From Candidatus Methylomirabilis tolerans (lineage in GTDB: Bacteria; Methylomirabilota; Methylomirabilia; Methylomirabilales; Methylomirabilaceae): DNA of 36,735 nt. Both the position numbers and the translations under genes were made by a program. How positions within the stretch are numbered: the stretch's first letter is position 1; each line of letters opens with the position of its first letter. The notes below the pieces were generated by a model that saw only the letters and a list, made by a program, of their open reading frames with translations, did no database searches and had not been told where the DNA came from. Shown in pieces: positions 19,257 to 30,206 of this stretch. The stretch is taken from contig JAIOIU010000021.1 of assembly GCA_019912425.1 (NCBI GenBank), positions 1-36,735 on the forward strand, read 5' to 3'.

Positions 19257-19342
19257 GCCGGGGTGGCGGAACAGGGAGACGCCGGGACTTAAAATCCTGC
19301 GGGCTTCGGCCTATGCGGGTTCGACTCCCGCCCCCGGCACCA
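19257..19342 (+). tRNA. tRNA-Leu (anticodon UAA)
   Basis: A complete class II cloverleaf: the acceptor stem GCCGGGG pairs with CCCCGGC, the anticodon loop reads ACTTAAAAT giving UAA, there is a long variable arm, the T-loop is GGTTCGACTCC, and CCA is encoded. Confidence 0.97.
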
Positions 19343-19500: not shown

Positions 19501-19577
<77 letters not shown>

Positions 19578-23052: not shown

Positions 23053-23739
23053 ATGCTGCAGACAGCAATCGGACGTCGACTCATCTCTCTGTACCGCCAT
23101 CTCTTCCGACGTTTTGGACCACAGCACTGGTGGCCGGCCCGCTCCCGTTTCGAGGTCATGGTCGGCGCCATCCTGACCCAGAATACTGCCTGGACCAATG
23201 TCGAGAAGGCGATTACGGCGTTGCGCACCGCACGACTGCTCAACCCCCCCGGGATCGATACCGCGTCGCAGGAGACGCTCTCCAGGCTCATCCGTTCATC
23301 CGGATATTATAACATGAAGGCGAAGCGCCTGAAACAATTCACGCGCTTCCTGTTGACGCGTTACAGCGGGAGTGTGCGGCGGATGTTTCGGACGGAGACA
23401 GCCGGATTACGCGAGGAGTTGCTGGACGTTACAGGGATTGGCGAGGAAACGGCAGACTCGATTCTTCTATACGCGGGCGACCGACCGATCTTTGTCGTGG
23501 ACGCGTACACTCGTCGGGTGCTGGAGCGGCACGAGCTGATTGCAGCGAACACTTCCTACGGTGAAATCCAGCGCCTCTTTATGACACATCTATCGGCCGA
23601 TCCGGCGCTCTTCAATGAGTATCACGCCTTACTGGTCGCCGTCGGTAAGACCTACTGCCGGAAAACTCCACAATGCGACAGTTGCCCTCTCCGATATGAC
23701 CTACCGGAAGGATCACCCCTTCTGCCGAGCCCAGAGTAG
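23053..23739 (+). CDS. Endonuclease III-like HhH-GPD DNA glycosylase, atypical active site and cluster
   Basis: The 228-residue protein has the HhH-GPD fold, with ILTQNTAWTNVEKAI, hairpin TGIGEETADSILLY (127-140) and the catalytic Asp150 in FVVDAYTRR. The position that is Lys120 in E. coli endonuclease III is Glu132 here, so it is probably a monofunctional glycosylase without lyase activity. Only three Cys (202, 208, 211) of the usual four-Cys iron-sulfur loop are present. It belongs to the broader COG2231-like group. It converges on thrC, overlapping by 27 bases. The damaged base recognised is not known. Confidence 0.88.
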   Translation: MLQTAIGRRLISLYRHLFRRFGPQHWWPARSRFEVMVGAILTQNTAWTNVEKAITALRTARLLNPPGIDTASQETLSRLIRSSGYYNMKAKRLKQFTRFLLTRYSGSVRRMFRTETAGLREELLDVTGIGEETADSILLYAGDRPIFVVDAYTRRVLERHELIAANTSYGEIQRLFMTHLSADPALFNEYHALLVAVGKTYCRKTPQCDSCPLRYDLPEGSPLLPSPE

Positions 23740-25569
23740 GTTGTACCCCTCCACGAAGGCATTCACCGAGGCAACGATAATGTCGGGGGAGGTCCCGCTG
23801 GCGACGATTCGATTGCCTTCGGCGTCCTTCATGACAATGGTGGTCTCAACTGAGGCATTAGTCCCTGGCGAGCTGATCTCCACATTGTAGTCGATCAGCT
23901 CAAAGAAAAGCTTCCCACGGGTCAAGGCGGCTTGTTTCAGGGCATTGATAACGGCATCCACCGGCCCGACACCCAGCGCGGTCGCCTCCACCTTTTCTCC
24001 CTCAAACAGCACCCACACGGCGGCCTCCGCCTGGCCATGGAGCGACGTCAAGACCTTAAAGTCCTTTACGGTAAGAATCGGTTCGTGAACCGATAGGCCC
24101 TTGAGGACATTCTCCACGATGTACTGAAGGTCGGCCTTCATGATCGGCTTCCCCTTCTTCACAAACTCCTCGATCAATAACCGTACTTTCCCGCCGTATT
24201 CGGCGGTCAGCTTGACGCCGAATTCCTGTCGTACCCGCGTTGTGACGTCGGCTACCGAGGGGACTGCCTCAAACAGGTTCTTATCGCCGTTTTTGGCGCC
24301 TGCGGCCCGGATCTCATACAGGCGCAGCTTCAGAAACTTCTCGACCTCCTGCATTGAGGGATCGATGGTAGCGGGCGACGGGAGGACCCGCAGTGCCGCC
24401 CTGGGATCCTTGAGTCCGTTCCCTGTGGCGAGGCACACCACCGTCTCATCCGCCCTCACACGCCCGCTGGTCAGCAGCAGCGCGAGCGCCCCGACGGGGA
24501 TCGCCCCGGACGGCTCCACGAAGATCGACTCCTGGCGCGCGATTCGCTGCTGCGCTTGCAAGATCTCGGTATCGTTGAGCGACAGAGCGCATCCGCCAGA
24601 TTCTCGCAGCGCCGCCAGTGCCTTCAGCCCATCCAACGGATCGCCTGCCATCAGTGCTGAGGCGACCGATTCCGGTTTCTTCACAGGAATAATATCGTCG
24701 CTACCCTGGTTAAACGCGGCCACGATCGGCGAACAACCGACCGGCTGGACACCGATCATCCGCGGCAGAGACGAGATCAACCCCAGCTCATGAAACTCTT
24801 TGAACCCCTTCCACAGAGCGGCAATATTGGTTCCGCACCCCATCGGGACGATGACAACAGATGGGGCCTGCCAGTCTAACTGCTCCACGATCTCGAACGC
24901 CTGTGACTTCTGGCCTTCAACACGAAAGGCGTAATCGCCGGCCAGATAATATCCGTAGCGCCGGCTCATCTGCTCGGCGATGGATGCCGCATCGTTATAC
25001 GTCCCTCGGATCTGCAGGACCCGGGCGCCATAGGAGAGGGACTGAGCCATCTTACCGATCGGGGTCCCCTCCGGCACCGCCACATAGCAGGGCAAATTCG
25101 CGATCGAGGCATAGGCGGCGACGGAGCCGGCCATATTGCCGGTAGAGGCAACGCAGATCGCCTTGGCGCCTTGCTCTTTGGCTTTCGTAATCTCCACCAG
25201 CGTTCCTCGATCCTTGAAGACGCCGGTCGGGTTCATCCCCTCGTTCTTGATGTACAGTTGTTTGATCCCCAACTCCTCCGCTAACCGATGGCACCGGTAC
25301 AGCGGCGTTCCGCCCTCATCAAGCGAGACCACCAGATCGAGGTTGAGGATGGGGTAGAAATCGAGGTATTTGAGCGCCTTGATCGGAGAGGTCTTGAGCG
25401 AGTATCGATTCAAGCGAGCCCTAATGTAGGCATAGTCATAGCGCACGCCGAGCGGCTTGCCGCAACTGACGCAACGCGAACTGCTCTCCTGCTCGGTGCA
25501 GGTTGCGCCGCACACAATACAGTAGAGCTCGTAAAACCTGGCTTCCCTACGCCGTCCCCTTGCGGCCAT
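23713..25569 (-). CDS. thrC: Threonine synthase with zinc ribbon and C-terminal LeuA-type allosteric domain
   Basis: Threonine synthase makes threonine from O-phosphohomoserine with PLP. Residues ~13-40 form a zinc ribbon (Cys17, 20, 33, 36). The PLP fold follows, with GGTPLYRC, Lys119 in NPTGVFKDRG as the Schiff-base lysine, and STGNMAGSVAAYAS. The enzyme ends near residue 400. Residues ~405-490 match the LeuA accessory helical region, and ~495-615 the LeuA dimerization/regulatory domain (GHGPVDA-like LGVGPVDAVINAL, SGTSPDIIVASVNAF). At 618 residues it is longer than ordinary ThrC. Isoleucine or a related product may inhibit it, which is inference. Confidence 0.94.
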   Translation of the reverse strand: MAARGRRREARFYELYCIVCGATCTEQESSSRCVSCGKPLGVRYDYAYIRARLNRYSLKTSPIKALKYLDFYPILNLDLVVSLDEGGTPLYRCHRLAEELGIKQLYIKNEGMNPTGVFKDRGTLVEITKAKEQGAKAICVASTGNMAGSVAAYASIANLPCYVAVPEGTPIGKMAQSLSYGARVLQIRGTYNDAASIAEQMSRRYGYYLAGDYAFRVEGQKSQAFEIVEQLDWQAPSVVIVPMGCGTNIAALWKGFKEFHELGLISSLPRMIGVQPVGCSPIVAAFNQGSDDIIPVKKPESVASALMAGDPLDGLKALAALRESGGCALSLNDTEILQAQQRIARQESIFVEPSGAIPVGALALLLTSGRVRADETVVCLATGNGLKDPRAALRVLPSPATIDPSMQEVEKFLKLRLYEIRAAGAKNGDKNLFEAVPSVADVTTRVRQEFGVKLTAEYGGKVRLLIEEFVKKGKPIMKADLQYIVENVLKGLSVHEPILTVKDFKVLTSLHGQAEAAVWVLFEGEKVEATALGVGPVDAVINALKQAALTRGKLFFELIDYNVEISSPGTNASVETTIVMKDAEGNRIVASGTSPDIIVASVNAFVEGYNLLWARQKG

Positions 25570-25609
25570 TGATCCTCCTCACGTATTGACTCTATGGAAA
25601 ACCCGCTCA

Positions 25610-30119: not shown

Positions 30120-30206
30120 GCCGAAGTGGCGGAATTGGTAGACGCGCTGCGTTCAGGGCGCAGTGGGCGTACGCCCATCGGGGTTCGAGTCCCCGCTTCG
30201 GCACCA
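30120..30206 (+). tRNA. tRNA-Leu (anticodon CAG)
   Basis: Class II cloverleaf: acceptor GCCGAAG pairs with CTTCGGC, anticodon stem CTGCG/CGCAG encloses TTCAGGG giving CAG, the long variable arm is present (TGGGCGTACGCCCA), and CCA is encoded. Confidence 0.97.

Follow-up and report, generated by a model that had tools for sequence, protein, structure and literature searches.

The window, that is, the whole 36,735-nt stretch of Candidatus Methylomirabilis tolerans DNA analyzed here, encodes on its reverse strand a 618-aa protein in which a catalytic domain of the threonine synthase (ThrC) family is fused to a LeuA-type allosteric domain. The following features were assigned to this gene:

23713..25569, minus strand: fusion coding sequence, 618 aa, with an ATG start and a TGA stop
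25574..25580, minus strand: Shine-Dalgarno-like GAGGAGG just upstream of the fusion ATG, from sequence reading
25438..25533, minus strand: N-terminal Zn-ribbon, residues 13-44, with C17, C20, C33 and C36; the four cysteines are invariant in 20 orthologs
24421..25329, minus strand: PALP (threonine-synthase-family) catalytic domain, residues 81-383, by Pfam
24100..24354, minus strand: linker helices, residues 406-490, with the LeuA accessory subdomain match from residue 448 on, by NCBIfam and AlphaFold2
23737..24144, minus strand: LeuA_dimer allosteric domain, residues 476-611, by Pfam PF08502

The catalytic half matches the PALP family with an E-value of 5.5e-74. The LeuA-type allosteric domain, which a sequence-only reading had proposed, was confirmed by the PF08502 model at residues 476-611 (3.5e-24; 85.6 bits vs. 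a gathering score of 24.9), and the same domain exceeds the gathering score in the eight full-length CPR and Methylomirabilota relatives scanned. Neither an IlvA-type C-terminal regulatory domain (PF00585 or ACT) nor the HMGL-like catalytic domain (PF00682) was found by Pfam in the fusion protein. The sequence-only reading had assigned residues 405-615 to the LeuA accessory and regulatory region; this holds for residues 448-615, which match the NCBIfam 2-isopropylmalate synthase model, whereas NCBIfam gave no LeuA match for residues 405-447 or so. The latter segment is partly helical in an AlphaFold2 model built from 49 family sequences, which is confident (pLDDT 87.8, pTM 0.82); an earlier model from close relatives only (pLDDT 57.9) was too poor and was discarded. 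No riboswitch or T-box was identified with Rfam near the fusion gene or near seven CPR loci that carry its relatives. The window also holds three tRNA genes (19257-19339, 19504-19577 and 30120-30203).

The fusion of a LeuA_dimer domain to a Zn-ribbon threonine-synthase-family PLP domain is real and not an artefact. A chance or misassembled fusion was rejected because full-length orthologs without stop codons occur across many independent assemblies: 40 relatives possess the full-length protein at 70-97% identity, and one ortholog lies in a genome assembled as a single 2,752,854-base contig. A survey for the same gene architecture, suggested by the sequence-only reading, covered 70 genomes of the phylum, each at least 85% complete. 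The fusion was found in 20 of the 23 genomes of the window's order (the Candidatus Methylomirabilis group), being split over two contig ends in G004, and in none of the 47 genomes from sister families. Directly upstream of the fusion, two Methylomirabilota relatives carry a further, diverged ThrC-like gene (L017:138-1409 and L016:3541-4128). A scan of named genomes returned 23 Methylomirabilota-type records, Candidatus Methylomirabilis included, and one Candidatus Peregrinibacteria genome; a further hit from Nitrospina was an ordinary LeuA and was discarded. Among 241 genomes of the CPR class to which the Peregrinibacteria genome belongs, there are 21 full-length fusions and two more cut by contig ends, as well as three copies that have the same catalytic domain without the regulatory domain. 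In a maximum-likelihood tree, the fusion-type catalytic domains form one clade, separate from other ThrC-like proteins, with a support of 97/100.

Motif comparison with ThrC proteins revealed a distinct catalytic-site signature of the fusion, in which the residues of the ThrC pocket are numbered as in Thermus thermophilus ThrC:

25201..25233, minus strand: PLP-lysine motif NPTGVFKDRGT, residues 113-123, with K119; Val or Cys replaces the ThrC Ser
25123..25146, minus strand: substrate loop STGNMAGS, residues 142-149; Met replaces T88
24922..24945, minus strand: LAGDYAFR, residues 209-216, in place of ThrC VNSVNPxR; one residue shorter, N154 and S155 lost, R160 kept
24826..24843, minus strand: MGCGTN loop, residues 243-248, in place of ThrC VGNAGN; N188 lost in 49 of 51 fusions

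The complete signature, consisting of [VC]FKDRG[TS], STGNM, LAGDYxFR (in general form LAGD[YF]xFR) and GxGTN, was found in every one of the 51 fusions, and all 21 other ThrC-like sequences compared lack it. In 51/51 fusions, T88 is replaced by M, N154 by G and S155 by D, and N188 is changed in 49/51, whereas both R160 and K165 remain as in the ThrC pocket. We take T88, N154, S155, R160 and N188 to be the phosphohomoserine pocket of T. thermophilus ThrC, in agreement with the sequence numbering. T88, N154, S155 and N188 are presumably the contacts of the substrate carboxylate and phosphate; we treat this assignment as a lead and not as a test of function. Three CPR genomes (L149, L150 and L151) encode proteins of about 400-440 aa with nearly the same altered signature and no LeuA_dimer, which may reflect an ancestral, unregulated state or a later loss of the domain.

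These data bear on the possibility that the fusion is a genuine threonine synthase, converting phosphohomoserine to threonine under feedback control by a branched-chain amino acid such as isoleucine. Such an enzyme would be consistent with the 38-42% identity of the catalytic domain to solved bacterial ThrCs, with the retained R160 and with a score above the NCBIfam threonine synthase equivalog cut-off; the lysine motif, however, reads [VC]FKDRG[TS] in 51/51 fusions, and T88, N154, S155 and usually N188 are replaced. A fold search places ThrC structures on top and also matches serine racemases and deaminases; since the top matches are ThrC structures, this modeled similarity does not discriminate the function of the fusion. 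The genome context argues further against a working threonine synthase. Another contig of the same genome encodes a canonical ThrC that matches TIGR00260 at 328 bits and shows the classical motifs NPTGSFKDRGM, STGNTSAS and NSVNPYRIEGQK. An E. coli-type ThrC also accompanies the fusion in at least eight CPR genomes, the family being confirmed for one of them. In favor of threonine synthase activity, the three PALP proteins of the CPR genome G082 include no ThrC besides the fusion. Assigning the fusion to threonine synthesis would leave the near-complete genome of the window without a source of 2-oxobutyrate, and on balance we consider it unlikely that the protein is a true ThrC.

The genome of the window is 99.96% complete and encodes six PALP proteins. 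Besides the fusion and ThrC, these are TrpB, two cysteine synthases and a ThrC-like protein that lies next to a sulfur carrier. With all six accounted for, IlvA is absent. Citramalate synthase (CimA) is absent as well, because the only HMGL-like protein in this genome is LeuA. We also considered 2-oxobutyrate formation by gamma-lyase or MetB-type enzymes and rejected it for the Methylomirabilota genomes tested, the window's genome among them: none has a genuine member of the Cys/Met-metabolism gamma-lyase family (PF01053), and therefore no gamma-elimination route of that kind leads to 2-oxobutyrate. The absence of IlvA, CimA and gamma-lyase thus leaves no other obvious source of 2-oxobutyrate for isoleucine in this genome. 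Among the 23 genomes of the window's order, CimA occurs in none and a full IlvA in only one, which has 9% contamination. In the sister families, a full IlvA and/or CimA was found in 45 of 47 genomes (in one of the 45 via a partial CimA). This complementary pattern is at the level of clades and reflects few independent events. A single-domain dehydratase occurs in the f5 genomes, and in one f4 genome as well. In the CPR genomes with the fusion, no IlvA-like protein was recognized among the PALP matches by scores, lengths and reading of sequences. A CimA-like protein accompanies the fusion in seven of these genomes (L217-L223), one being confirmed by TIGR00977 at 684 bits, and two isoleucine entry routes may coexist there. 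Hence, because of the f5 dehydratase and these CimA-like proteins, the fusion is not always the sole candidate.

Within the window, the fusion gene has no ilv neighbors. The Peregrinibacteria record has the gene order ilvE-ilvB-ilvN-fusion-ridA, and isoleucine-branch genes are located within five genes of the fusion, always on the same strand, in 13 of 26 CPR loci. These include ilvE (8 loci), ridA (8), ilvB (6), ilvD (3), ilvC (3) and ileS (3), and they are arranged in at least five different gene orders. With genome content roughly estimated at about 1,200 genes, chance would bring any particular gene into this range in about 1% of loci. Representatives of ilvE, ilvB, ilvD, ilvC and ileS, as well as the small subunit of acetohydroxyacid synthase (AHAS) of one locus, were confirmed by NCBIfam equivalogs, and a RidA representative by an NCBIfam subfamily model; for the AHAS small subunit of L122, which had no NCBIfam hit at the threshold applied, the assignment relies on its position and sequence. 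RidA hydrolyses 2-aminocrotonate, the enamine released by threonine deaminase. The proximity of ileS to the fusion suggests a connection to isoleucine itself. The isoleucyl-tRNA synthetase at L134:10200-13823, which adjoins ridA and the fusion, contains a phosphoglycerate-mutase/CobC-like insert at residues 511-668 or so.

A second possible reaction is the formation of 2-oxobutyrate directly from O-phosphohomoserine, where the first half-reaction of ThrC, the gamma-elimination of phosphate, would take place, but 2-aminocrotonate would then leave the enzyme without water being added, thus bypassing threonine. Such a lyase would account for the ThrC ancestry, the retained R160 and K165, the RidA and ilv neighbors and the missing IlvA. 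The other presumed phosphate contacts are lost, though, and every fusion copy has an Asp in the segment that we take to contact the phosphate, which would disfavor a phosphorylated substrate; we regard this reaction as very unlikely.

The regulatory half of the fusion matches a single solved structure, 3f6g/3f6h from Leptospira interrogans, which we take to be the isoleucine-binding regulatory domain of citramalate synthase. Its effector contacts are presumably Y430, L451, Y454, I458, V468, P493 and Q495, in agreement with the sequence numbering, and the corresponding candidate contacts in the fusion are V537, L558, Y561, I565, V574, P595 and I597. Compared with the Leptospira enzyme, the fusions conserve L451, Y454 (as Y or F), I458 (except for V in nine CPR copies), V468 (except for T in four copies) and P493 (except for S in one copy). 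At Y430 and Q495 they deviate from it and have LeuA-like residues (V, I). In LeuA sequences, I458 is replaced by A or S, V468 by A or G and P493 by T (V in one sequence), and the CPR CimA proteins have I, A and E/G/K at these positions, respectively. As judged from these alignments, the pocket of the fusion resembles that of the isoleucine-binding Leptospira citramalate synthase and not that of LeuA, and the comparison favors isoleucine over leucine as the predicted effector.

The LeuA-like residues at the Y430 and Q495 positions would also suit a PLP enzyme of another pathway, such as a serine deaminase or a beta-replacement enzyme, with a regulatory domain sensing leucine or valine. The match of the PALP fold to serine racemases and deaminases is compatible with such a role, as is one CPR locus (L129:854-2809) where leuD and leuB are located upstream of the fusion; LeuA or CimA was not found in that assembly. 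The isoleucine-type pocket positions and the recurrence of ilv, ridA and ileS neighbors in several gene orders argue against it, and an enzyme of this kind is the least probable of the readings considered.

Taken together, the fusion is quite probably an isoleucine-feedback-regulated threonine deaminase that arose from a ThrC paralog; we infer its substrate, product, effector and direction of regulation from the comparisons above. The sequence-only reading had placed the feedback control on the threonine step itself, which is probably wrong. Given a separate ThrC, a pocket that differs in every copy, the lack of both IlvA and CimA and the location of half of the CPR copies in ilv/ridA/ileS clusters, the evidence points to the step after ThrC, threonine to 2-oxobutyrate, as the regulated reaction. 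What stands of the proposed regulated ThrC is the LeuA-type domain on a ThrC-family enzyme, with isoleucine control as its likeliest role, whereas the catalytic half is probably not a working threonine synthase. In the suggested scenario, a duplicated threonine synthase would have become a threonine deaminase (threonine ammonia-lyase) and would have acquired a regulatory domain of the LeuA/citramalate-synthase type. The PLP domain would convert L-threonine via 2-aminocrotonate to 2-oxobutyrate and ammonia, AHAS (IlvBN), IlvC, IlvD and IlvE would complete isoleucine from 2-oxobutyrate, and the catalytic half would be inhibited when isoleucine binds to the dimer domain at the C-terminus. The job of IlvA would be done by a different catalytic lineage with a different regulatory domain.

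Comparison with known systems delineates this candidate. Its proposed reaction, isoleucine feedback, PALP fold and ilv/ridA-side location resemble those of IlvA, but the catalytic subfamily is another one, the N-terminus is a Zn-ribbon and LeuA_dimer occupies the place of the IlvA-type C-terminal domain. The scores against the IlvA models TIGR01127, TIGR01124 and TIGR02079 range from 59 to 96 bits vs. cut-offs of 379-441 (for the TIGR01127 equivalog, 95.5 vs. 378.75, not reached), which makes the fusion a functional IlvA-like candidate outside the IlvA sequence family. With Class II (Thermus/Aquifex-type) ThrC (PRK08197/TIGR00260) it shares the catalytic fold, the PLP lysine, about 40% identity and, for some members, the Zn-ribbon; it differs in the changed substrate pocket of every copy, in the extra linker and regulatory domain and in its coexistence with a canonical ThrC. 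The regulatory domain and accessory subdomain are homologous to those of the Leptospira citramalate synthase and LeuA (PF08502), although in the fusion they are attached to a PLP enzyme and not to an HMGL-like acetyl-CoA condensing domain. The transition from ThrC to a deaminase is plausible because in vitro deamination of threonine is reported for ordinary ThrC proteins, namely the Microcystis, Thermus and Bacillus enzymes (PMC12172450). The moonlighting Microcystis protein is likewise a ThrC-lineage protein that deaminates threonine, but ThrC is its primary activity, and neither LeuA_dimer nor an isoleucine gene cluster is described for it (PMC12172450).

No published description of the fusion was found in the papers searched. 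It is likely that the family represents a third design of isoleucine entry beside IlvA and CimA, a ThrC-derived, LeuA_dimer-regulated 2-oxobutyrate-forming lyase of Methylomirabilis-type and many CPR bacteria that is systematically misannotated as threonine synthase. Annotation pipelines would give the fusion this name, and it is probably a different enzyme, one forming the first committed isoleucine precursor. If so, it would explain isoleucine synthesis in NC10 methane oxidizers and in ilv-bearing CPR bacteria, the CPR carriers being ultra-small, and would correct the misannotation behind an apparent gap in pathway predictions. It would also constitute a domain swap between two committed-step enzymes, the threonine route having taken over the sensor of the citramalate/leucine route. 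The fusion family provides a clean sequence set for studying the change from synthase to deaminase.

The ThrC-like protein beside a sulfur carrier in the window's genome is located on contig C61 (L040:2130-3452, minus strand) and adjoins a ThiS/MoaD-like carrier (L040:1797-2120, minus strand). The cluster also holds two cysteine synthases and MoeB-like and JAMM-like proteins. Since the genome has no PF01053 enzyme, this protein may act as a homocysteine or cysteine synthase that depends on the sulfur carrier, and it is likely annotated as threonine synthase as well.
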